DNA from: Marinobacterium mangrovicola
GTDB taxonomy: Bacteria; Pseudomonadota; Gammaproteobacteria; Pseudomonadales; Balneatricaceae
DNA: 64,000 bases
Direction of reading: 5' to 3'
NCBI RefSeq assembly: GCF_004339595.1
Contig: NZ_SMFU01000008.1
Coordinates: forward strand, 186,001-250,000
The translations under genes were made by a program, and so were the position numbers. Position 1 is the stretch's first letter. Every line of letters starts with the position of its first letter. A model generated the notes under the pieces. That model was not told the origin of the DNA, made no database searches, and saw nothing but the letters and a program-made list of their open reading frames with translations. Positions 15,262 through 64,000 of this stretch are shown here, piece after piece.

Positions 15262-15275
15262 GTCAATTCCTTGAC
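15262..15275. promoter_or_regulatory. FleQ-box-like palindrome over the fleQ -35 element
   Basis: GTCAATTCCTTGAC has perfect GTCAA/TTGAC arms and agrees with the published FleQ consensus GTCAATaaATTGAC at 11 of 14 positions. It overlaps the -35 hexamer TTGACA, where binding would block RNA polymerase. Confidence 0.6.
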
Positions 15276-15298
15276 AATCCCCTGAGGTCGAGTAACTT
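15271..15298 (+). promoter_or_regulatory. Probable sigma-70 promoter of fleQ
   Basis: TTGACA at 15271-15276, a 16-base spacer, and TAACTT at 15293-15298, 32 bases upstream of the fleQ ATG. The -35 is perfect and the -10 moderate. Both elements touch FleQ-like palindromes (15262-15275 and 15299-15312), which suggests autoregulation. Confidence 0.6.
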
Positions 15299-15312
15299 GT
15301 CAGAATACTGAC
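15299..15312. promoter_or_regulatory. Second FleQ-box-like palindrome, at the fleQ start site region
   Basis: GTCAGAATACTGAC has perfect GTCAG/CTGAC arms and the same GTCA-N6-TGAC frame as the site at 15262. It matches the FleQ consensus at 10 of 14 positions and lies immediately after the -10 element. Centre-to-centre distance from the first box is 37 bases. Confidence 0.5.
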
Positions 15313-15329
15313 GCAACCCGGATCGACCG

Positions 15330-16766
15330 ATGCAACTCAGCGGATCTAATGTTCTGATCATTGATGATGCCCTGGAGCGGCGTGCTCATCTGCAGGGGAT
15401 CTGCGAGTTCCTTGAACTCCAGTGTCATGTTTTTGACTTCGTGACCTGGCTGCAGCAGGGCAAGTCCTTTGATCTGTCGACTACCTCGGTGGTGTTTCTG
15501 GGCGAAAGCAGCCTGCCGATCTCCCTCAACAAGCTGATTGCCGATCTTAATGACCAGGGGCGAATCCTGCCCAAGGTGCTGGTGTGCGACTGGCCGGAGC
15601 TGTCCGAATCTGACTTTGAAAATGCTGGCGGGGTCGGGCATCTGCAGGAGCCCTACAGCTACGCGGTCATGCTTGATCTGCTGCATCATTGCTATGTGTT
15701 TTCCACGCAGCAGCACTCACCGTCTCATCCTGAGCTTTCGTCCCTAATGGGGCAGAGCCCTTCGATTCTTGAGGTTAAGCGGCTGATCGCCCAGGTGGCG
15801 CCGCGCGATATCAGTGTCTTGATCACCGGTGAATCTGGCACAGGTAAAGAGGTGGTAGCCCGCTGTCTGCATGAGCAGTCTTCCCGGGCAGAGGGTCCGT
15901 TTGTGCCGGTGAACTGCGGCGCGATTCCTGCCGAGCTGCTGGAAAGTGAACTCTTTGGCCATGAGAAGGGCGCTTTTACCGGCGCGATCTCCAGCCGGGC
16001 AGGGCGGTTTGAACTGGCTCAGGGCGGTACGCTGTTCCTGGACGAAATTGGCGATATGCCGCTGCCGATGCAGGTGAAGCTGCTTCGCGTGATTCAGGAG
16101 CGTCAGTTTGAGCGTGTCGGTGGCACCAAAACGCTGGAAGCGGACGTGCGTATCATCGCCGCCACCCATAAGGATCTCGAAACGATGATCGAGGCGGGTG
16201 AGTTCCGTGAGGATCTCTATTACCGCCTGAATGTGTTCCCCATCGAGATGCCCGCATTGCGTGATCGACTCGATGATCTGCCGTTGTTGGTCAATGGGCT
16301 GATCGAGCGTCTCAAAAACGAGGGGATCGGCAGTTTTCGCTTTCATCCTTCGGCACTCGAGTCGCTGCAAAAACATGCCTGGCAGGGCAATGTGCGAGAG
16401 CTGGCCAACCTGCTTGAGCGACTGGCCATTATCTATCCCGACGGCATCGTCGGCGTCTCTGAGCTACCGCCAAAATTCCGCCATATCGATGAACCTGACC
16501 CCGGCCGCTATGAGGCAGATGCTGAGCAGTTGCTTCTGGTCGAAGCGCCTCCAGTATCGACACCGCCTCTGCCGATTTCCGGTGATGTCCAGTTGCCACC
16601 GCAAGGCATAGAGCTGAAGCTGTTTCTGGAAAAACTGGAACGCTCGCTGATCAATCAGGCATTGGAGCGCTGTGCCAATGTGGTAGCCCGTGCCGCCGAC
16701 GAGCTGGGTATTCGCCGTACTACGTTGGTGGAGAAAATGCGCAAATATGGTATCTCCCGACAATAA
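15330..16766 (+). CDS. fleQ: FleQ, sigma-54-dependent master regulator of flagellar genes
   Basis: The 478-residue protein has the FleQ/FlrA layout. It has an N-terminal degenerate receiver (FleQ domain, about 1-130), a sigma-54 AAA+ domain with Walker A GESGTGKE at 167-174 and the sigma-54-contacting GAFTGA loop at 214-219. Next are [10 protein letters not shown] and the arginine-finger region [15 protein letters not shown]-terminal Fis-type HTH ends [17 protein letters not shown]. FleQ-type proteins activate class II flagellar promoters with sigma-54 and, in pseudomonads, switch biofilm genes in response to c-di-GMP. It precedes fleS-fleR as usual. The promoter holds two FleQ-like boxes and a third lies at 15424-15437 within the coding region, suggesting self-control. 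Confidence 0.95.
15424..15437. promoter_or_regulatory. Third FleQ-box-like palindrome, inside the fleQ coding region
   Basis: GTCATGTTTTTGAC, whose reverse complement GTCAAAAACATGAC matches the FleQ consensus at 11 of 14 positions. It lies about 95 bases downstream of the fleQ ATG. Inside a coding region it could be chance, but it is the third GTCA-N6-TGAC site in 176 bases. Confidence 0.35.
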
Positions 16767-25070: not shown

Positions 25071-28000
25071 TCAGGCTCTGGCAGTGGCGATCATCTTGTT
25101 GATCAGCGCCCTCAGGGCGGCGGGTTTCACCGGTTTGGTCAGCAGCTGTGCGCCCCAGGCAAGAATCTCTTCACGCACCTCGTCGGTGCGGTCGGCGGTG
25201 ATCACCACGGTGGGGATCGGCTTGCTCCAGCAGGGACTCAGGTCGTTCAGGGCCATAATACCGGTCTCGGTTTCACCCAGGTGGTAATCCACCAGCATGA
25301 TGTCCGGTTCCCAGTTTTCCGCTTTTACTTTATCCACTGCCTCCGCACCGGAGAGTGCGGTCAGCACCTCGCAGGACCAGCCTTTCAGCAGTGCTGACAT
25401 CCCCTCGATAATCTTCGGCTCGTTATCGATTACCAGCACCTTGATGCCGTTAAGGCCCTTGCTGCGGATCCAGCCGCGCTGTTCCGGTTTGGGTTTCTGC
25501 GCCTTGCTGGCGTCACCCAGCGGCACGCTGACGCTGAATACCGTACCCTGGCCGGGCCAGGAGCGCACGTTAACGCTATGCCCCAGCATACGTGCGATAC
25601 GCTCGGTGATGGCCAAGCCCAGGCCCAGGCCCTTCACTTCGCTGTGCTTCGGGTTATCGATACGGCGGAACTCCTCGAACACCTCGGAGAGCTTGCTTTC
25701 GGGAATGCCGACACCGGTATCCCAGACCTCCAGCCGCAGGCTGTTGTCCTGGTGGCGTGCGCCCAGCAGCACCTTGCCCTTGGCGGTATAGCGGATGGCG
25801 TTGGAGAGAAAGTTCTGCAGAATGCGGCGCAGCAGCGCCTGGTCGGAGTAGACCACCTGTTTGCAGTTGACGTGATGGAAGCTAAGACCCTTCTCCTTGG
25901 CCACCGCATTAAACTCGGTGGAGAGATGCTGGAACATCGAATCCAGCGCGAAGTGGCTAAAGTTCGGCTCCAGGGCACCGGCGTCGAGTTTGGAGATATC
26001 GAGGATGGCGGTGATCAGCTCTTCGGCAGCGTGCAGGGCGTTATCCAGATTGCCCACCAGCTGAGTGGTTTCCGGCTCGTGTGACTGCTGTGCCAGGGCC
26101 GAGGTGAACAGACGCGCCGCGTTCAGCGGCTGCAGCAGGTCGTGGCTGGCCGAGGCGAGGAAGCGGGTTTTACCCAGGTTGGCGGCTTCCGCATCGGACT
26201 TGGCCTGGCGCAGCTCGTCCTCCATCAGGGCGCGGATGGTGTTCTCCTTACGCAGCTCCTTGTTGACCACCGACAGGGCGTGGGTTCGCTCGCGCACACG
26301 CTGCTCCAGGTTCTCGTTGGTTTCCTGCAGCGCGATCTCCGCCTTACGCCGTTCGGTAATGTCCTGGTAGAGGGTGAAGTAACCGAGCAGGTCTCCGTAT
26401 TCGCCGATATGCGGGATATAGGTTACCTCGGCGTATCGCTCCGAGCCGTCTCGGGTCGGCATGCGAGTTTCAAAGCGCTGGCGCTCGCCGTTCAGTACCT
26501 TGCGAATGTAGTGGTGTCGGTGCTCATGTTCATCCGGCGGCAGAATGTTGCGTGATGGCGTGCCGGCGATGGTGTGGCGGTCGATGCCGAAGGTGTCGGC
26601 ATAGGCCTTGTTGACGAACAGGAAGTTCCGGTCCGGATCCAGGTAGGCGATCAGGACCGGCACGTTGTCCGTGTAAACGCGGATGTTCTGTTCACTCTCA
26701 CGCAGAGCTTCTTCGGTACGCTTGTGTTCGGTGATATCCATGTAGGTGTTGACGTAGCCGCCGTTGGGCATCGGGTTGCCGCGGACTTCGAGTACGGTGC
26801 CGTCAGGGCGGTAGCGCTCAAATGCATGGGGCTCGCCGGAGCTGATCACCGCTAGACGCTCGGCCACCTGATCATCCAGGGTGCCGTTGCTAAGGCCATA
26901 TTCCCCGCGCACGGCGTTGTAGCGGAAGATCTCCTCAATAGGGCGACCCACGCAGACCAGTCCCTCGGGGTAGTTGAACATGTCGATATAACGCTGGTTC
27001 CAGGCGACCACGCGCATATTCTGATCGACCACGCTGATGCCGAGGCTGATGTTCTCGATGGTGGACTGCAGCAGGGAGCGACTGAACCTCAGTGCCTGAG
27101 ACGCTTCATCGACAATCGCCACCACGTCGCCGATCTCCATATCCTTGCCGCGCAGGGTGGAGTCCATGACGATACGGGCGGATGAAGCGCCGATAGCACC
27201 GGCAAGCAGGCGTTCGGTGTGCTGTATCAGCTCCGGTGTTGCCTTGGAGCCGGGCAGTGCCGGGTCTTCGCCGCGATGCAGGGCGTAGGTGGTAAAGGCG
27301 TGTTGGGTACGGCTGATGCCGAGGAAACGCTCTGTGAGCATCTGCAGGTCGCCAACGGATACCTGGCTGGTCATGCGGCCAGGCTCGGCGAAGTGCTTGG
27401 TATGTACGTTGGTGAAGGCACTGGCCTGGATTCTGTCCACCAGGCGCTGGCTGGTGAGCATCGATACACCAATATAGAGCAGCAGGTTAATGCTCAGGCT
27501 CCAGATCACGCCGTGGGTCAGCGGATCGAAATAGCTCAGCCCGAAAAGCGAAGTGGGCGCAGCCCAATCCGGCGTATCCCAGCCCGGTAGCAGCTGTGTC
27601 GGGATAAGGTGGGCGGACTGCATGGCCGGTACGACCAGGGTATAGACCCAGAGCAGGAAGCCGGCGGTGAGTCCTGTCAGTGCGCCGCGACGGTTGCCGC
27701 GTTTCCAGTAGATGCCGCCGACAATGGCAGGCAGGAACTGAATTGCAGCGACGAATGCCAGCAGGCCGAAGGAAGCCAGTGAGCCCTGATCGCCAAGAAT
27801 ACGGTAGTAGAAGTAACCGAGCAGCAGCAGGGTGACGATGGTGATGCGGCGTACGCGCAGCAGCAGCGATCCCAGATCTGAGGTTTCTGCGAGTTTGAGG
27901 CGCGGTATCCGCAGCAGCACCGGCATCACGATATCGTTACACACCATGGTGGCGAGGGTGATGCTGGCGACGATAACCATGCTGGTGGCGGCGGACAGGC

Positions 28001-29000
28001 CGCCGATAAAGGCGAAGGTCGCCAGGTATTCATGTCCGCCGATCAGGGGCAGCAGCAGAACGAAGATATCCGCTTCCTGGCTGGAGGGGCCAAAGTAAAG
28101 AATGCCGCCGGTGGCGATAGGCAGCACGAACAGGGATAGCAGAATCAGGTAGAGCGGGAACAGCCAGCGAGCGGTGCGCAGGTTGCGGTTACGGGTGTTC
28201 TCCACGATGGTGACGTGAAACTGCCGTGGCAGACAGATAGCCGCGCCACAGGCGAGAATAATCTCCGTCAAAAAACTGTCGCCCAGTGGCGCGGTGAAAT
28301 TGGTGTTGTTCTGTAACTGGTGCTGGAGGTTGTTCAGCATGGTGTCGACACCGCCGAACAACCCGAAGGTGACGAACAGGCCTACCGAGAGGAACGCGGT
28401 GAGTTTTATGATCGATTCGAACGCCACCGCCAGTACCAGGCCTTCGTGGTGCTCGGTGGCGTCGATATGGCGGGTACCAAACAGAATGCCGAATACCGCC
28501 ATCGCCAGCGCCACGAACAGAGCGGTATCACTGCCCTTGCTCAGGGCCTCGGTGGCGCCAGGTGCCAGGGCGTTGTAACTGATCGCCACCGCTTTCAGCT
28601 GCAGCGCGATATAAGGGATGGTGCCGAGCACCCCGATCAGTGTGACCAGCACCGCCAGGCTCTGGCTCTTGCCGTAGCGGGAGGAGATAAAGTCGGAGAT
28701 CGAGGTGATGTTTTGTTGCTTGCTGATCAGGATGATCTTCTCGATCATCCGCCAGGCCAGCAGGAACACCAGCACCGGGCCCAGGTAGGTGGCCATGAAC
28801 TCCCAGCCAGTGGAAGCTGCGCGCCCCACCGCGCCGTAAAAGGTCCAGGATGAGCAGTAAACCGCCAGCGACAGGGAGTAGACCACCGGGTTACTCGCCC
28901 ACTTTTTGCCCGCGTCGCTTTTATCCCCGTAGTACGCCAGCCCGAAGAGCAGGCAAAGGTAGGCGAGGGAGATCAGTATGATGGTCCAGCCCGATAACAT
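25071..29000 (-). CDS. crbS: CrbS (MxtR-like) SLC5-transporter/PAS/hybrid histidine kinase
   Basis: The 1309-residue protein fuses a sodium:solute-symporter-like membrane module (about residues 1-540, some 12-13 segments, starting MLSGWTIILISLAYLCLLFG) to a sensor kinase. A linker is followed by PAS domains at about 650-900 (ENISLGISVVDQNMRVVAWN, then NVPVLIAYLDPDRNFLFVN). The HisKA domain has H953 in ASASHDLLQPLNAARL, then a HATPase (DTGVGIPES, GLGLGLAIT) and a C-terminal receiver with D1238 in IMLVDYHLGE. This architecture is CrbS/MxtR, which works with CrbR to induce acs. An in-frame upstream start at 29081 exists, but family alignment favours the ATG at 29000. The symporter part probably senses or moves the substrate. 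It is divergent from the symporter operon. Confidence 0.92.
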   Translation of the reverse strand: MLSGWTIILISLAYLCLLFGLAYYGDKSDAGKKWASNPVVYSLSLAVYCSSWTFYGAVGRAASTGWEFMATYLGPVLVFLLAWRMIEKIILISKQQNITSISDFISSRYGKSQSLAVLVTLIGVLGTIPYIALQLKAVAISYNALAPGATEALSKGSDTALFVALAMAVFGILFGTRHIDATEHHEGLVLAVAFESIIKLTAFLSVGLFVTFGLFGGVDTMLNNLQHQLQNNTNFTAPLGDSFLTEIILACGAAICLPRQFHVTIVENTRNRNLRTARWLFPLYLILLSLFVLPIATGGILYFGPSSQEADIFVLLLPLIGGHEYLATFAFIGGLSAATSMVIVASITLATMVCNDIVMPVLLRIPRLKLAETSDLGSLLLRVRRITIVTLLLLGYFYYRILGDQGSLASFGLLAFVAAIQFLPAIVGGIYWKRGNRRGALTGLTAGFLLWVYTLVVPAMQSAHLIPTQLLPGWDTPDWAAPTSLFGLSYFDPLTHGVIWSLSINLLLYIGVSMLTSQRLVDRIQASAFTNVHTKHFAEPGRMTSQVSVGDLQMLTERFLGISRTQHAFTTYALHRGEDPALPGSKATPELIQHTERLLAGAIGASSARIVMDSTLRGKDMEIGDVVAIVDEASQALRFSRSLLQSTIENISLGISVVDQNMRVVAWNQRYIDMFNYPEGLVCVGRPIEEIFRYNAVRGEYGLSNGTLDDQVAERLAVISSGEPHAFERYRPDGTVLEVRGNPMPNGGYVNTYMDITEHKRTEEALRESEQNIRVYTDNVPVLIAYLDPDRNFLFVNKAYADTFGIDRHTIAGTPSRNILPPDEHEHRHHYIRKVLNGERQRFETRMPTRDGSERYAEVTYIPHIGEYGDLLGYFTLYQDITERRKAEIALQETNENLEQRVRERTHALSVVNKELRKENTIRALMEDELRQAKSDAEAANLGKTRFLASASHDLLQPLNAARLFTSALAQQSHEPETTQLVGNLDNALHAAEELITAILDISKLDAGALEPNFSHFALDSMFQHLSTEFNAVAKEKGLSFHHVNCKQVVYSDQALLRRILQNFLSNAIRYTAKGKVLLGARHQDNSLRLEVWDTGVGIPESKLSEVFEEFRRIDNPKHSEVKGLGLGLAITERIARMLGHSVNVRSWPGQGTVFSVSVPLGDASKAQKPKPEQRGWIRSKGLNGIKVLVIDNEPKIIEGMSALLKGWSCEVLTALSGAEAVDKVKAENWEPDIMLVDYHLGETETGIMALNDLSPCWSKPIPTVVITADRTDEVREEILAWGAQLLTKPVKPAALRALINKMIATARA

Positions 29001-29110
29001 GTCGACAATGTCCAGTTTGTTCAACGTGAATACGGTACACAGTGTAACTCGGTAAAGGCTGGCTGGGGACTGTCGTGGCACAAGCCTGAGCGTAAAGCCC
29101 TACTTATCGT

Positions 29111-34269: not shown

Positions 34270-34283
34270 GTCAAAATAATGCC
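34270..34283 (+). promoter_or_regulatory. FleQ-site-like element in the fliE leader
   Basis: GTCAAAATAATGCC matches the FleQ consensus at 10 of 14 positions and shares GTCAAAA(A/T)AATG with two copies in the flhA leader. In P. aeruginosa FleQ binds downstream of the sigma-54 promoters of fliE and flhA, which makes this position meaningful. Confidence 0.4.
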
Positions 34284-34301: not shown

Positions 34302-34658
34302 ATGGTCGATCGAGCTGATATCAACGGCGTTCTGGCGCAGATGCGTGAGTTAAGAGCTCAGGCTCAGCAGGGCGTGCGTCAGATCGATATGCCGAACCCG
34401 ATTCAGCAGCCAAACCAGGTCGAAAAGACCGAGCAAAGCGAGTTTGGCGATCTGCTTAAGATGGCGATCGATCAGGTCAATAATCATCAGGCGGAAGCCT
34501 CCCGGTTAAGAACCGCCTATGAACTGGGCGATCCCAGTGTGGATCTGCCGCAGGTCATGATCCAGGCCCAGAAGGCCTCCGTCTCTTTTCAGGCGATGAC
34601 CCAGGTGCGCAACCGTCTGGTTAGCGCTTACGAAGATATAATGAATATGGCGATCTGA
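34302..34658 (+). CDS. fliE: FliE, MS ring-rod junction protein
   Basis: FliE joins the MS ring to the proximal rod and is among the first exported subunits. The 118-residue protein shows the conserved C-terminal half: EFGDLLKMAIDQVNNHQAEA, then DLPQVMIQAQKASVSFQAMT and QVRNRLVSAYEDIMNM. A strong GGGGGGAG ribosome site lies directly before the ATG. It is the first gene of the large fliEFGHIJ operon; 28 bases separate it from fliF. Confidence 0.96.
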   Translation: MVDRADINGVLAQMRELRAQAQQGVRQIDMPNPIQQPNQVEKTEQSEFGDLLKMAIDQVNNHQAEASRLRTAYELGDPSVDLPQVMIQAQKASVSFQAMTQVRNRLVSAYEDIMNMAI

Positions 34659-40067: not shown

Positions 40068-42260
40068 ATGCCGTCATCCAGTGTTTCCGTTTCACCGATC
40101 AGTGTTTCGGTTTCCATATCTCCATCCAGGCCCGCTGCGGCAGGCTCTGCAGCAGCCGTCGAATCCGAAGCAGGCTTTCAGCAGTGGATGAATAACGCTC
40201 AGAACAGGCAAAGGACATCCGGAGGGGAGGGCGGCGACCCGTTGCCGTCTGAAGGAAAAGATCTGCCCGCGCAGCGGCAAGAAGCTCAAGGAGTCGCCGC
40301 GGATAAGACTCCGAACGGCGATATGGATAAAGCCTCGGGTAGCGAAGCGGAAAAGTCCCATAAAGGTGATGTGGATAATGCCTCGGGCGGCGAGACGGAT
40401 TTAGCGCATCGCGCAGATGCAGATAAGAATCCCGCTGCCGAAGCCGATGAGGCTGAGAGCGGTGACACCGATAAGGCTCAGCGAACGGAAGCGGATAACT
40501 CTCAGAATGATGCGTCGCAGGAAATTCCGAGGGCTGATCTCAGTGGGGCGTCGGATGCTGTCTCGGCTGATGATGTCCAAAAGGTCGATGGTGAGAGTTC
40601 GGCTCTGACGGGCGATACGTCTCGGGCTGGCCAAAATGAAGCTCAAAAGGTAGCTGGCGAGACGGAACCTAAGGCTGCTGCGGATTCAAAAGTTGGCGAC
40701 GTTCCGGATGTGGCTTCAAAGCCGGCGTCGGGTGTCGACTTGCCGGAAGGGGCGGGTAAAGCCACAGAGTCGCAAATGGCTCAAGCTCAAGCTGGAGCTG
40801 CAGTAGCGGAGGCAGCAAATGAGCCAAGTGTCAGGGTTTCGACTCCGACTGCTGATGCGCAGGCCTCAACAGCGAGTGGAGTCTCGCAGGCAGGAACTGG
40901 TAAGCGCGTTCAGGATACGGAACAGGCCGGTGATGTTGGAAAGGTTGCTTCAAGGGAGAGGGGCGATAAGCCTCAGTCGCCTGAGGTCGTTGGGGCTGGT
41001 TCACGGGATTCGGCCAATGATCGTTCCCATATAAGTGCTGAGGGCAGAAGTATTCCGGAGCCTCCGCCTCTGCCAGAACAGGCGGCTCGCCCGGAAGTAC
41101 GCGAAGCTGCGCTGGAAAATGGTCGTGTTGGGCCGCAGCAGACTCAATCCGAGCCGGTTCGAGGTGATCGCCCTGTGGCTGAAATGCCGGGGACGGGGGC
41201 TCAGTCTGATGTCGAAGCTGTAGCTTTGAAGAGTGAGGCGCCGTCGGCTGCTCCTGCCGCAATTGATGGCGCTGGCGGAGATGTTGCTCAGGGGCGTGTC
41301 GAGCAGCGAAATGTTGAACAGGGTCATGTCGGCACGGCTGTGCAGGTAGGGCAGGCAGAGCAGGTTGTTGAAGGTCGCGATACCGCTGCGGCGGCGCAAC
41401 TGGCTGCGCAAGCACAGCCGGTGACCGATTCAGATCCCTCGATTGAGCAGGTTCGCCCGCTGTCAGCTCGGGATACGGTAGCGCAGGCGGTTGAACGCAA
41501 TACGGATATGGGAACTGCGGCAAAGCACCCCGGCGATGGCTCGGCTCAGTTCGTGGCTCAGGGCGCGCAAAGTCCTCAGCAGGGGGCTGCCCGTGCGCAA
41601 TCAGACCCGTTGCTTTCCCAGCAGGCGCAGCAGTTGCAGTCGGGTGGCCAGCCGGCGCAATCAGCGGATACTGATCAGAATGGGCAGTCCTCAAAAGCGG
41701 GCGGTGCGCTGTTTACGGCGGATAGCCGTAGTAGTGCGGATCCCGGGGGGCTTGGCGCTCAGTCGCAACAGCAGAACTCGGCTACTACGCAGCCTGGCGT
41801 CGCTGCCCAGCGTTTTGAAGCTTCTGCAGTAGCGCTTGCCCAGCGCTTGCAGGATCCTGCCTGGGGTCGGGCGATGGGGCAACGGGCGGTGATGATGGCG
41901 CAGTACGGTCCGCGTTCTGCGGAGATTCAGCTCGATCCACCGGAGCTGGGCGCGATGCAGGTACGTGTCCATCTGAACGGCAAGGATCAGGTCAGTGTCA
42001 GCTTTACCTCACCGCATCCGCAGGTTCGTGAGGCGATTGAGCAGCAGCTGCCCCGTCTTAAGGAGATGTTTGCCGAACAGGGAATGGATCTGAATCAGTC
42101 GTCGGTGTCGGATCAGTCGGCTCGGGAGCAGCGTGATGAATCCGGTGGCGAACGTGGTCGCCAGTCAGGTTCCCAGGCCTATGGTGACAGTGGCAGCGCA
42201 GGTGAAAGCCTCATCAATGTTACCCAGGCTCCGGTAGGGCTCGTCGACTATTACGCCTGA
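40068..42260 (+). CDS. fliK: FliK, flagellar hook-length control protein
   Basis: FliK measures hook length and triggers the FlhB substrate switch. The 730-residue protein has a very long, low-complexity, Ala/Glu/Asp/Ser-rich N-terminal ruler (about 1-580). It includes loose repeats of the type DKASGSEAEKSHKGD / DNASGGETDLAHRAD at about 85-125. The conserved C-terminal domain at about 590-690 reads MAQYGPRSAEIQLDPPELG, MQVRVHLNGKDQVSVSFTS and VREAIEQQLPRLKEMFAEQG. It has its own sigma-54 promoter. A second FliK-like gene lies at the right edge. Confidence 0.93.
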   Translation: MPSSSVSVSPISVSVSISPSRPAAAGSAAAVESEAGFQQWMNNAQNRQRTSGGEGGDPLPSEGKDLPAQRQEAQGVAADKTPNGDMDKASGSEAEKSHKGDVDNASGGETDLAHRADADKNPAAEADEAESGDTDKAQRTEADNSQNDASQEIPRADLSGASDAVSADDVQKVDGESSALTGDTSRAGQNEAQKVAGETEPKAAADSKVGDVPDVASKPASGVDLPEGAGKATESQMAQAQAGAAVAEAANEPSVRVSTPTADAQASTASGVSQAGTGKRVQDTEQAGDVGKVASRERGDKPQSPEVVGAGSRDSANDRSHISAEGRSIPEPPPLPEQAARPEVREAALENGRVGPQQTQSEPVRGDRPVAEMPGTGAQSDVEAVALKSEAPSAAPAAIDGAGGDVAQGRVEQRNVEQGHVGTAVQVGQAEQVVEGRDTAAAAQLAAQAQPVTDSDPSIEQVRPLSARDTVAQAVERNTDMGTAAKHPGDGSAQFVAQGAQSPQQGAARAQSDPLLSQQAQQLQSGGQPAQSADTDQNGQSSKAGGALFTADSRSSADPGGLGAQSQQQNSATTQPGVAAQRFEASAVALAQRLQDPAWGRAMGQRAVMMAQYGPRSAEIQLDPPELGAMQVRVHLNGKDQVSVSFTSPHPQVREAIEQQLPRLKEMFAEQGMDLNQSSVSDQSAREQRDESGGERGRQSGSQAYGDSGSAGESLINVTQAPVGLVDYYA

Positions 42261-47681: not shown

Positions 47682-47709
47682 CCCCGGAAGTTGGCGGGGT
47701 TTTTGCTTT
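47682..47709 (+). terminator. Hairpin/T-run after flhB, overlapping the sigma-54 promoter of flhA
   Basis: CCCCG (47682-47686) pairs with CGGGG (47695-47699), followed by TTTTT. The same stretch carries TTGGCGGGGTTTTTGCTTT, with GG at 47693-47694 and GC at 47705-47706 exactly 10 bases apart, a good match to the sigma-54 -24/-12 consensus. flhA is sigma-54/FleQ-dependent in pseudomonads, so a promoter role is plausible alongside termination. Confidence 0.6.
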
Positions 47710-47805: not shown

Positions 47806-47819
47806 GTCATTTTTTTGAC
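47806..47819 (-). promoter_or_regulatory. FleQ-site-like element 2 in the flhA leader
   Basis: On the minus strand this reads GTCAAAAAAATGAC, with perfect GTCA/TGAC arms and 12 of 14 matches to the FleQ consensus, the best in the window. It is 100 bases downstream of the sigma-54 -12 element, as described for P. aeruginosa flhA where FleQ acts from the leader. Confidence 0.6.
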
Positions 47820-51485: not shown

Positions 51486-52307
51486 ATGAATATGAAGCAG
51501 TCTCATCCGGTCAAGGTGGTAGCGGTTACGGGCGGCAAAGGTGGAGTCGGCAAAACCAACGTGTCCGTCAACCTGGCAGCTGCTCTTGGCGAGATGGGGC
51601 GGCGTACGGTGCTGATGGATGCGGACCTTGGGCTTGCCAACGTCGATGTGATGCTGGGGCTGAGGCCCAAGCAGAACATTGTCGATGTGCTGGAGGGCAC
51701 CTGCGGGCTGAAGGATGTCATGGTCGAGGCTGGCGAGAATTTCTATATTGTGCCTGCATCCTCAGGGACCCAGGAGATGACCGCTCTGAGCGTGCATCAG
51801 CACGCAGAGCTGATTCATGCGTTTAACGATATCGCCGATGAGCTAGATGTACTTATCGTTGATACGGCGGCGGGGATTTCTGAATCAGTGGTGAGTTTTA
51901 TACGTGCCGCGCAGGAAGTTCTTGTGGTAGTCTGTGATGAACCGACGTCAATTACAGACGCTTATGCGCTAATCAAGTTATTGAATCGGGATTATCGTAT
52001 GACACGCTTCCGTGTGCTGGCTAACATGGTACGTAGCGACACAGAGGGGCGAAGCATGTTCAGCAAGCTGCTGACCGTGACGGATCGCTTCCTGGATGTC
52101 ACGCTTCAATACCAGGGATCAATCCCTTATGATGAGGCGGTACGCAAGGCTGTGCAGAAGCAAACGCCTGTTTTGAAAGCGTTTTCGACCAGTAAGGCAG
52201 CACTTGCATATAGGCAGCTCGCCAACAAGGTGGATGAGTGGCCCGTATCGACAACATCGCGCGGGCACCTCGAATTCTTTGTTGAGCGTCTGGTTCAAGG
52301 GGTATAG
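51486..52307 (+). CDS. fleN: FleN (FlhG), MinD-like ATPase controlling flagellar number
   Basis: The 273-residue MinD/ParA-type ATPase has the deviant Walker A GGKGGVGKT at 16-24, then VLMDADLGLANVDVMLGLRP, VLIVDTAAGISESVVSFIRA and the C-terminal amphipathic helix. FleN binds FleQ and lowers its activity, keeping flagellar number to one. It starts 8 bases after flhF. Confidence 0.96.
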   Translation: MNMKQSHPVKVVAVTGGKGGVGKTNVSVNLAAALGEMGRRTVLMDADLGLANVDVMLGLRPKQNIVDVLEGTCGLKDVMVEAGENFYIVPASSGTQEMTALSVHQHAELIHAFNDIADELDVLIVDTAAGISESVVSFIRAAQEVLVVVCDEPTSITDAYALIKLLNRDYRMTRFRVLANMVRSDTEGRSMFSKLLTVTDRFLDVTLQYQGSIPYDEAVRKAVQKQTPVLKAFSTSKAALAYRQLANKVDEWPVSTTSRGHLEFFVERLVQGV

Positions 52308-61537: not shown

Positions 61538-61819
61538 TCAGACCTCTGTTTTCAAACCATAGGTGAAGGCGATAATCTCGGCGATCGCGCGGTACAGCGA
61601 TTCCGGAATCTCATCTCCCAGTTCCAGCCGGATCAGGATCTCCAGCAGTTCAGGGCTTTCGTAGATATGGACATCATGTTCTTTGGCCAGACTGATGATC
61701 TGCTGCGCAATCACCCCCTGCCCCTTGGCCGTTACTCTGGGTGCGCTGCCCGCATCCTGATCATACTTCAGTGCTACTGCCTGTCGGCTCAGTGATGAGT
61801 AATCGTTATCGTCTGTCAT
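61538..61819 (-). CDS. FlhB C-domain-like export protein (FhlB/EscU-type short paralogue)
   Basis: This 93-residue protein aligns with the cytoplasmic tail of FlhB. The segment SRQAVALKYDQDAGSAPRVTAK corresponds to YSVAIRYDQSRGNAPIVVSK of FlhB here, and VIAQQIISLAKEHDVHIYES and SLYRAIAEIIAFTYGL follow. It lacks the membrane part and the NPTH cleavage motif. Similar stand-alone FlhB-tail proteins occur beside FliK-like genes and can partly substitute in substrate switching. Its start overlaps the stop of the FliK-like gene by 4 bases, so the two form an operon. Confidence 0.88.
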   Translation of the reverse strand: MTDDNDYSSLSRQAVALKYDQDAGSAPRVTAKGQGVIAQQIISLAKEHDVHIYESPELLEILIRLELGDEIPESLYRAIAEIIAFTYGLKTEV

Positions 61820-64000
61820 GTGTGCAGGTCCACCAAACGGTGATTAACGGGAGAACGGGTGTCCCTTGGCGGCTTCCCTCGCTGAACCTGTAGCGCTTCC
61901 ACCTCGAATCCGCTGGCGCCAAGCTGCTGCTGGAAACCGTCCAGTTGTTCTCTTATCAGGCGGGTTGTTTCCTCCCGTTCAGCCCAGAAACGTGCACTTA
62001 ACTGCCATTCTTGCTGCAGGCTGACGTGAGCATCTACCGGACCCAGTTCCTCTCTGTCGAAATGGAGTTGAATCGACCACTGGGAAACAAAGCGGCCCTC
62101 TTCGTCAGGCTTTTTGCGTTGCTGGATATGGATTTCGCTGTCCTCAAGTCTATCTCTCTCCAGGCGAATCGGCAGATCCAGCCGGTACTGGCGCTCCAGG
62201 GACCCGTCTGGCATCTCCTGCCAGTTTTGCAGACTGGTGGCCTGATGGCTGGCGCTGCGTGCCTGGAGACCTTTTACCAGCGTTAGCATCTGTTCCCGTG
62301 CCTGGGGTGGCAGCTGGTCCGCCAGATCGGTCAGCTTTCCGAGCTGCTGCTGCAGGGGTGGCAGCTCGCGCTGAGAAGCGGCTGGGTTAGCTCTGGGCTG
62401 GCTGATCAGCCCGCTGGACTGAAGGTGATTCTGCACCACCTGTTGGGTGGTTTTTGCGTCAGTTTTCGGAGGAACGCTGAACAGGCTCAGCATCGACTTG
62501 ATCACCTGTGCCACCGCATCGCCCCCCGGGCGACTGATGGCCGGTATCTGGCGCATCTGGTTCAGTGCATCGCCGGCGGGCAGCTGCTGCGGCAAATTGT
62601 CGCGCAATATTTGCTGTAACCCTTCCTGTAATTTCAGTTGTGCCCCGTTATCATTGCGGGGCGGTGCGAGCTGAAGCTGTATATGGTTATCGCTGGTGCG
62701 GGTCAATTGCACCTCCAAACCTGGTTGCAGCGGTCTGGGGCTGATGAATTCCAGCGTTTGTCCGTTCACGCTCAGGCTGACGCGGATGTTGTCAGCGTTA
62801 GCGGCAATGACCTGTCCAGAGGCGCCTTGGGGAGCGGTCGAAGCTTGCGCGGCAGGCGGAGTCTGTGCGGCGACAGGCGTTTGGGGTGCGGCTGCCGTTT
62901 GATTTGTTGCTGTTGTCGTTGAAGTCGCAGCCGTTGCAGCAGTCGCTGGCGTAGTGCCCGGCTTTGAGCTTTGTGCAGCGGGGCTTGGCGAGGGCGGCGG
63001 TGGATTGTTTGTCGACTCTCTTGATGAGGTTGACGGTGAAGGTTGCTCGCGTGGCGTCGTGTTACTCGCTCCAGCTGTTGTTTGCGACGGGGCAGGCGTC
63101 GGTGCCGGTGGTGTAGCCTGGGATGATGTTGATTTTGGCGTCGATGCCGCCGGCTCCTGCGTTGAAACAGGGGTTATCGGCGCCTGAATACGTGGGTTTT
63201 GTGACTGCTTGTCTGCAGTGCTGCCTGTGGCCGGGGCGCGTTCCTGAACCGTTGGTTGCGGTCTGGGTTGCTCATTATTCGCCGGTGGGGCTTGTGTTTG
63301 AGCAGCCCGGTTAGATGTATCTGCCGTCGCTGGCGCCGGTGTTCTTGGCGTTGTGCTCGCAGGCTGTTGCTCAGGGTTTGTTGCCGTTCCGGTAGGTGGC
63401 CGGGAGGGCGTAGAGGAAGTCTGAGCAGTGTCACTTTGAGTGTTGCCCGCAGCAGCGTTTTGTGAGGAAGAGCTGGGCGGCGGTGTCGTAGGCCGCGCGG
63501 TGGTCGGTTGAGAGTTCTGGCCATCTGCGAGAGTCGGTGTTTGCTGTGAGCCTGTACTGGTTACTACTCGCGCAAGCTGCGTTTCTCCGACCGGCAGGAG
63601 TTGCGTCAGGCTGTTTTGGCTTTGGCTTTGGCTTTGGCTTTGGCTTTGGCTTTGAGCCGGAACGCGGAGCTGCAGAATCGGCGCTTGGGGTTGGGCCTTT
63701 TGCTGCGGCGTTGGATTGCTGCTCTGGGGGCGTGGCTGAGTGCTCAGAAGAGTCAGTTGCACCTTGCCGGCCGCATCCTGGCTCAGGCTGATCTGAGCGC
63801 CGGAATTCAGTGGCCTGGTGGTCAGTAGCTCCATGAGTTGTTTTTGCACCTCGACCTTGATCCGGAACAGGTTGGGGCGCTGTGGGTCCGGGGTCACTTC
63901 CCGTACACTTGCGTCCAGCGTGCGGCCAGCCGCAAGCTCGGCGCGGACATCAGTCTGTCGGGCACCATCTGCGGGCAGCTGTTGCAGTGATTGTACGGGC
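61816..64000 (-). CDS. FliK-like hook-length control family protein (5' end outside window)
   Basis: A second FliK-type gene, open to the right window edge. A GTG at 63897 is possible as a start, but the frame continues upstream with coding-like sequence (LPADGARQTDVRAELAAGRT), so the real start lies outside. The visible roughly 727 residues have a small N-terminal domain (NLFRIKVEVQKQLMELLTTR) and a long Pro/Ser/Thr/Gln/Ala-rich low-complexity middle, with a Ser-Gln repeat near the start. The FliK-type C-terminal domain includes LEDSEIHIQQRKKPDEEGRF, WSIQLHFDREELGPVDAHV and LIREQLDGFQQQLGASGF. It is coupled to the FlhB-like gene. Confidence 0.85.
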   Translation of the reverse strand, partial: PVQSLQQLPADGARQTDVRAELAAGRTLDASVREVTPDPQRPNLFRIKVEVQKQLMELLTTRPLNSGAQISLSQDAAGKVQLTLLSTQPRPQSSNPTPQQKAQPQAPILQLRVPAQSQSQSQSQSQSQNSLTQLLPVGETQLARVVTSTGSQQTPTLADGQNSQPTTARPTTPPPSSSSQNAAAGNTQSDTAQTSSTPSRPPTGTATNPEQQPASTTPRTPAPATADTSNRAAQTQAPPANNEQPRPQPTVQERAPATGSTADKQSQNPRIQAPITPVSTQEPAASTPKSTSSQATPPAPTPAPSQTTAGASNTTPREQPSPSTSSRESTNNPPPPSPSPAAQSSKPGTTPATAATAATSTTTATNQTAAAPQTPVAAQTPPAAQASTAPQGASGQVIAANADNIRVSLSVNGQTLEFISPRPLQPGLEVQLTRTSDNHIQLQLAPPRNDNGAQLKLQEGLQQILRDNLPQQLPAGDALNQMRQIPAISRPGGDAVAQVIKSMLSLFSVPPKTDAKTTQQVVQNHLQSSGLISQPRANPAASQRELPPLQQQLGKLTDLADQLPPQAREQMLTLVKGLQARSASHQATSLQNWQEMPDGSLERQYRLDLPIRLERDRLEDSEIHIQQRKKPDEEGRFVSQWSIQLHFDREELGPVDAHVSLQQEWQLSARFWAEREETTRLIREQLDGFQQQLGASGFEVEALQVQRGKPPRDTRSPVNHRLVDLHT
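63618..63653. repeat. 6-copy GGCTTT hexanucleotide repeat inside the FliK-like gene
   Basis: Six perfect copies of GGCTTT (plus-strand view), encoding a Ser-Gln run on the minus strand. Like the parP repeat it is in frame. Confidence 0.9.

Follow-up and report, generated by a model that had tools for sequence, protein, structure and literature searches.

The region 5' of fleQ, the master regulatory gene of the bacterial flagellum, and the 5' part of its coding sequence carry three copies of the palindrome GTCA-N6-TGAC. This raises the question of whether FleQ controls its own gene at this locus and, if so, in which direction. The window, meaning the whole stretch of 64,000 nucleotides that was analysed, shows the following features around the palindromes:

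15262..15275, + strand: FleQ box 1 (predicted), GTCAATTCCTTGAC, with the putative -35 hexamer in its right half
15271..15276, + strand: putative sigma-70 -35 element TTGACA, assigned by eye, with TTGAC at the same place in most of the listed family promoters
15293..15298, + strand: putative -10 element TAACTT, assigned by eye, weak with a 3/6 match to the consensus
15299..15312, + strand: FleQ box 2 (predicted), GTCAGAATACTGAC, directly 3' of the -10 element and covering the expected start point
15330..16766, + strand: fleQ, encoding a sigma-54-type activator of 478 aa with a FleQ-type N-terminal domain, an AAA+ domain, and a Fis-type HTH
15424..15437, + strand: FleQ box 3 (predicted), GTCATGTTTTTGAC, in fleQ codons 32-36 (Cys-His-Val-Phe-Asp)

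The fleQ gene and its neighbours

The protein encoded in the window combines the FleQ N-terminal domain, the AAA+ sigma-54 interaction domain, and the Fis-type HTH that define the FleQ/FlrA family. The Pfam models score 47.5 bits for FleQ (cut-off, 22), 255.5 for Sigma54_activat, and 54.9 for HTH_8, and the best PDB match is the FleQ structure 8p53_C, with an E value of 1.9e-143 over residues 7-477. Among the best 25 of 30 matches, no NCBIfam model reached its cut-off. The GAFTGA loop is present, and the recognition helix has the same sequence as in P. aeruginosa FleQ. The gene is followed on its 3' side by a histidine kinase and then a sigma-54 response regulator, as expected for fleS and fleR, with flhA, flhF, a MinD-like fleN candidate, and fliA located further along the window. 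The suggestion in the original prediction that FleN takes part in the control of fleQ finds a candidate in the place expected for fleN:

51486..52307, + strand: MinD/ParA-type ATPase, probable FleN (FlhG) between flhF and fliA, identity by position

The MinD models score below their cut-offs for this protein, whose position marks it as the probable FleN, the partner of FleQ. The window also encodes two FliK-type (Flg_hook) proteins, one at 40068-42260 and a further one, 693 aa long, on the minus strand at 61816-63897.

Frequency of the palindrome and match to the FleQ consensus

Exact copies of GTCA-N6-TGAC begin at 15262, 15299, and 15424, as had been predicted. Boxes 1 and 2 form a 37-bp pair, and box 3 lies 125 bp 3' of box 2. 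The 64-kb window contains four copies, compared to 0.90 expected from shuffles, and four were reached in 3 of 100 shuffles; the fourth copy lies at 47806, just 5' of flhA. The whole genome of 4.98 Mb contains 101 sites (with positions listed for about half of them), compared to 82 for a reversed control pattern. Because this difference is weak, genome-wide enrichment was rejected as proof of FleQ sites. The palindrome is barely enriched in the genome, individual sites are near background, and it is the cluster that is unusual. Poisson arithmetic on the 101-site count gives an expectation of about 0.00055 occurrences per genome for three copies within 163 bp. The claim that the trio stands far above chance is borne out by this value, and the genome count, which could have revealed a similar density elsewhere, does not refute it. 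A chance origin of the fleQ cluster was rejected on the cluster arithmetic together with the same-composition and spacing controls described below.

The published FleQ site is a 14-bp pseudopalindrome, GTCaNTAAAtTGAC, which boxes 1 to 3 match at 12, 10, and 11 of 14 positions on the better strand. Values of 11, 10, and 11 had been given before; as written, the boxes match GTCAATAAATTGAC at 11, 10, and 9 positions. The ends of the boxes are exact, and their centres are less AT-rich than the FleQ consensus. The pattern with an AT-rich core, GTCANWWWWNTGAC, has only 3 sites in the genome, namely, fleQ box 2, the flhA box, and C3:329328 within a reading frame that resembles by eye a TonB-dependent receptor. 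Boxes 1 and 3 do not fit this pattern.

Conservation of the boxes in related fleQ loci

Within the genus, box 1 is exact in 8/8 loci, box 2 in 5/8, and box 3 in 6/8. In the g6 loci L126-L129, box 2 is exact in 1 and has one mismatch in 3, and for g6/g10, box 3 is exact in 4/8 loci and carries one mismatch in the other 4/8. In the family outside the genus, all 32 scored loci show an upstream fleQ box with at most one mismatch (22 exact and 10 with a single mismatch). Beyond the family, the order contributes 24 anchored fleQ loci, of which 22 have an exact box and 2 have one mismatch. This sample consists of the most similar FleQ genes, as 40/145 order genomes matched at the threshold. Another 3 of 27 order loci lacked an anchor, and 10 more matching genomes gave no locus. 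Taking genus, family, and order together, an exact box is found near the fleQ start in 55/68 loci. In a spacing control on the same 68 loci, only a gap of 6 among the gaps 2-12 gives such a result, compared to 0 to 4 loci for the other gaps. The 23 control palindromes of the same composition yield 18 matches in total in the 68 loci, 6 of which come from TCAG-N6-CTGA in 5/33 family loci. One-mismatch boxes have a chance of ∼0.1 per 300 bp by rough arithmetic, and their counts therefore weigh less than those of exact boxes. The palindrome is thus kept in orthologous fleQ promoters of the genus, the family, and the order, and the prediction of conserved sites is not refuted. The genus and family scan gave no anchor for L146, and it may place the L020 start codon 12 nt too far upstream.

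Many family members lack boxes 2 and 3; in L022 and L023, box 1 is the only one that is still exact. A further set of named, mostly more distant genomes (loci L046-L075, with 9/30 not anchored and L063 anchored on another gene) contains 21 anchored loci, with an exact upstream box in 2, one mismatch in 10, and none in 9. The exact boxes belong to P. mangiferae and one gammaproteobacterial MAG, and two Vibrionaceae have no box.

Several order relatives outside the family (L168, L169, L173, L175, L177, L178, L183, L184, L185, and L194) often show two boxes upstream of fleQ. These pairs are 49-60 bp apart, with one box sometimes mismatched, compared to 37 bp in the window.

Putative promoter layout and direction of control

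The putative elements TTGACA and TAACTT are separated by a spacer of 16 nt, and box 2 begins at the base after TAACTT, where transcription should begin. A mechanical sigma-70 scan listed no promoter at this fleQ site. Because of this absence and the weak -10 element, the fleQ promoter is counted as a by-eye assignment, which is supported by its recurrence in relatives. In the 30 family promoters listed, TTGAC forms the right half of the displayed box in all except L020, for which the script took box 2, and a weak -10-like element often follows by eye 16-18 bases after TTGAC. The box ends 27-28 nt before the ATG in L133, L134, and L136-L138, which is too near for the layout of the window to hold in these loci. 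Conservation of the right half of box 1 could partly reflect the -35 element alone. Box 1 lies on TTGACA and box 2 lies after TAACTT, which places the boxes on the promoter core insofar as the putative promoter, assigned by eye, is correct. The overlap of box 1 with the -35 element and the location of box 2 after the -10 element, as first described, hold in their positions, and the promoter itself is putative and was missed by the scan.

Repression accompanies FleQ boxes that lie on a sigma-70 promoter or a start point, as described for PbcsD (PMC6424431) and pel (PMC10723142). At both of these promoters, FleQ and FleN repress through promoter occlusion with more than one FleQ box, as is proposed here. 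A FleQ box overlaps the start point at pel and a putative sigma-70 promoter at PbcsD, and the layout in the window resembles both. The known cases concern genes for biofilms, and c-di-GMP relieves their repression (PMC10723142, PMC6424431), whereas the target here is fleQ and the FleQ protein has no LFRS motif.

FleQ could also bind the boxes and activate its own promoter in a positive feedback with a ceiling set by FleN. Many promoters are FleQ activated, and PlapA of P. putida is controlled positively (PMC6424431). However, box 1 on the putative -35 element and box 2 on the expected start point correspond to the layout described for repression, no sigma-54 element is seen by eye at the fleQ promoter, and the title of a reference cited in PMC8036289 describes P. 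aeruginosa fleQ as sigma-70 dependent. Activation is considered rather unlikely, and repression of fleQ by FleQ is likely from the geometry of the boxes.

Box 3 inside the coding sequence

The synonymous sites of fleQ were compared in 14 orthologues, which are those of 30 aligned sequences with the peptide C-H-x-F-D and were picked on protein rather than on codons. The top 5 of 317 five-codon windows of fleQ by excess of synonymous identity overlap box 3, with a z of 4.7, compared to 2.4 for the best window elsewhere in the gene. The box 3 window also ranks first with two close relatives dropped (z of 4.3 compared to 2.4), in 8 diverse sequences (4.6 compared to 2.2), and, with a smaller margin, without the genus (g6+g10) (3.7 compared to 2.6). 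The Asp codon under box 3 is GAC in 13/14 sequences, and GAC is the minority Asp codon in 13/14 of these genes. No other stretch of fleQ is as constrained at its synonymous sites as box 3, a constraint at the level of DNA.

The box might be merely a by-product of the conserved peptide CHVFDF, leaving boxes 1 and 2 as the only operators. The F-D/G-F/Y and W-L-Q parts of this region are indeed conserved in family members without box 3. Against this stand the synonymous positions under the box, the most conserved in the gene, and the residue under the centre of the box, which varies (V, I, N, or D) while the ends of the palindrome persist. An origin in the peptide alone is thus regarded as unlikely.

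Elements of the RNA or of translation near the start, in place of DNA operators, could leave a similar trace, as boxes 2 and 3 are palindromic and would lie at least partly within the transcript. Box 1 precedes the expected start point, and the RNA around box 3 folds no better than shuffled sequence (z of -0.41), which makes such an element highly improbable. An RNA hairpin at box 3 finds no support in the same z value.

Looping between the boxes had been proposed as part of the repression. It is possible; yet the distance between boxes 1 and 3 ranges from 161 to 186 bp across related loci without helical phasing, so that a rigid loop is unlikely. The phase resultant is 0.42 over 14 related loci and 0.15 over 9 distinct distances, neither of which supports a rigid loop with the two boxes in helical phase. 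A role of box 3 as a roadblock or in raising the local concentration is as good an explanation as bridging. Its location within the gene allows a clean test of an intragenic operator via synonymous mutation.

The same motif at other flagellar genes

Two further flagellar genes of the window carry the motif at a similar place:

34270..34283, + strand: one-mismatch FleQ box (predicted), GTCAAAATAATGCC, 32 nt before the fliE ATG
34302-34658: fliE, identified by Pfam FliE
47806..47819, + strand: exact FleQ box (predicted), GTCATTTTTTTGAC, 32 nt before the flhA TTG start

The product of flhA is FlhA by TIGR01398. The sequence GTCAAAATATTGCC is found at the corresponding place before fliE in 4/5 relatives' stretches. 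Before flhA, at -31 in the relatives, the box is exact in G002, shows one mismatch in G003 and G001, and is absent in G006 and G007. The region before fleS contains neither an exact box nor a one-mismatch box with an AT-rich core. Both fliE and flhA are FleQ targets and FleQ dependent in Pseudomonas (PMC6120874). Their boxes share the motif and the gene cluster with the fleQ boxes and, in the window, lie 32 nt ahead of the start codon; in contrast to these genes, which need FleQ in Pseudomonas, the fleQ promoter of the window looks like a sigma-70 type with boxes over its core elements.

The motif alone is a poor predictor of FleQ binding in P. fluorescens, where the published FleQ motif has 536 genome matches, mostly outside the FleQ ChIP peaks, and a robust motif could not be derived (PMC6120874). 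FleQ footprints in P. putida likewise show no conserved sequence in the account of PMC8125075.

A regulator other than FleQ with a GTCA...TGAC site could bind here, since the ends of the box are simple and binding of FleQ at this locus is deduced from sequence; Vfr and AmrZ act at fleQ in Pseudomonas (PMC8036289). The motif and its spacing, however, fit the FleQ consensus (quoted in PMC6120874), the same boxes occur at fliE and flhA, and FleQ marks the region 5' of fleQ in P. aeruginosa (PMC9159945). A different regulator is accordingly held to be very unlikely. The reading of the palindromes as FleQ boxes that control fleQ is well supported by their conservation, the identical recognition helix, and the motif at fliE and flhA. 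Of the FleQ autoregulation originally predicted, the part on FleQ boxes thus gains good support, and the part on repression is only likely from the geometry.

Three side observations concern the same motif and region. The boxes before fliE, flhA, and fleQ (box 2) all begin 31-32 nt before the start codon. A one-mismatch FleQ-like box, GTCAAAAAACTGTC, lies at 28267-28280 inside an SSF-PAS-histidine kinase-receiver gene (25071-29081, minus strand), and a counterpart, GTCAAAAAACTGTC or GTCAAAAAACTGCC, is found in 5/5 relatives scanned, inside this unrelated sensor-kinase gene. In the flhB-flhA gap, a terminator-like hairpin at 47682-47699 overlaps a sequence resembling by eye a sigma-54 -24/-12 element (47682-47707).

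Residues for c-di-GMP binding

In P. aeruginosa FleQ, c-di-GMP is contacted by R144, R185, and R334 (PMC10723142), and a review gives the c-di-GMP signature of FleQ as LFRS, RN, and ExxxR (PMC10333796). The FleQ protein of the window keeps R185 and R334, with R144 replaced by Ser, N186 by Cys, and E330 by Gly, and departs from this signature. The LFRS string is found in 0/30 aligned FleQ proteins of the family, and Arg in the R144 column in 1/30 (L131); N186 is kept in 5/30, E330 in 14/30, R185 in 29/30, and R334 in 25/30. The count for R144 covers 30/41 family loci, as 9 short loci end before this residue and L142 and L146 lie outside the alignment. The family loci without LFRS are the window and L016-L023, L126-L141, L143-L145, and L147-L149. 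All of R144, R185, N186, E330, and R334 are kept in all 11 aligned proteins from outside, and LFRS is present in 24/24 scored FleQ proteins from other families of the order.

The family of the window may therefore sense c-di-GMP weakly or not at all, given the lost LFRS motif and signature residues, with the caveat that R144 also contacts ATP. The proposal that repression responds to c-di-GMP is weakened because LFRS, with the c-di-GMP-contacting R144, is gone here and in 30/30 FleQ proteins of the family.

Proposed negative autoregulation and its relation to known systems

The three palindromes are, with good probability, FleQ boxes through which fleQ is negatively autoregulated. Computation shows the boxes and how far they are conserved, the constraint on the DNA of box 3, and the identical recognition helix; that FleQ binds in this organism, where the promoter elements lie, which sign the effect has, and any bridging are inferred. 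A FleQ dimer, probably helped by FleN, would bind box 1, with the -35 element in its right half, and box 2 at the expected start point. Once FleQ accumulates, the sigma-70 promoter would be closed to RNA polymerase by promoter occlusion. Box 3 would serve as an auxiliary operator, either by increasing the concentration of FleQ locally, by blocking elongation, or by bridging to the two boxes upstream.

Binding of FleQ at its own gene is not new, as 3D-seq with FleQ-DddA marked the region 5' of P. aeruginosa fleQ, a gene that the authors include in the set controlled by FleQ (PMC9159945). That system shares with the window the protein family, the target gene, and a site 5' of fleQ. Upstream fleQ boxes in three Pseudomonas species are exact (P. 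mangiferae) or have one mismatch (P. rustica and P. jessenii). In these loci, the box lies far upstream (-118 or -144), two loci add a one-mismatch site at -32, and none is listed at the place of box 3. In the window, by contrast, all three boxes are exact; one lies on the putative -35 element and another is intragenic. Among the matches listed from the open-access literature, the passages covered do not describe a FleQ operator inside a gene, a FleQ box that incorporates the -35 element of fleQ, or the loss of LFRS in this family; those of PMC9565603, PMC11957545, PMC10621929, and PMC12096822 contain nothing on FleQ acting on fleQ. The site inside fleQ looks like a new twist on known self-binding, and the control of fleQ itself by FleQ is little discussed in the literature searched, as far as its covered passages go.

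The conservation of the boxes points to an old mode of control of fleQ by its own product, common to the examined, most similar FleQ genes of the order. Loss of the LFRS motif singles out a lineage whose standard FleQ switch may operate with changed c-di-GMP sensing or with none. A more tentative proposal, possible but doubtful at present, is that FleQ of this family has been freed of c-di-GMP control and is set mainly by its own concentration via the operator array in fleQ. Here, one box would double as the -35 element, a second would sit on the start point, and a third, encoded in synonymous codons of fleQ, would act as a downstream roadblock or bridge. If true, flagellar commitment would run as a homeostatic circuit, independent of the usual second messenger.
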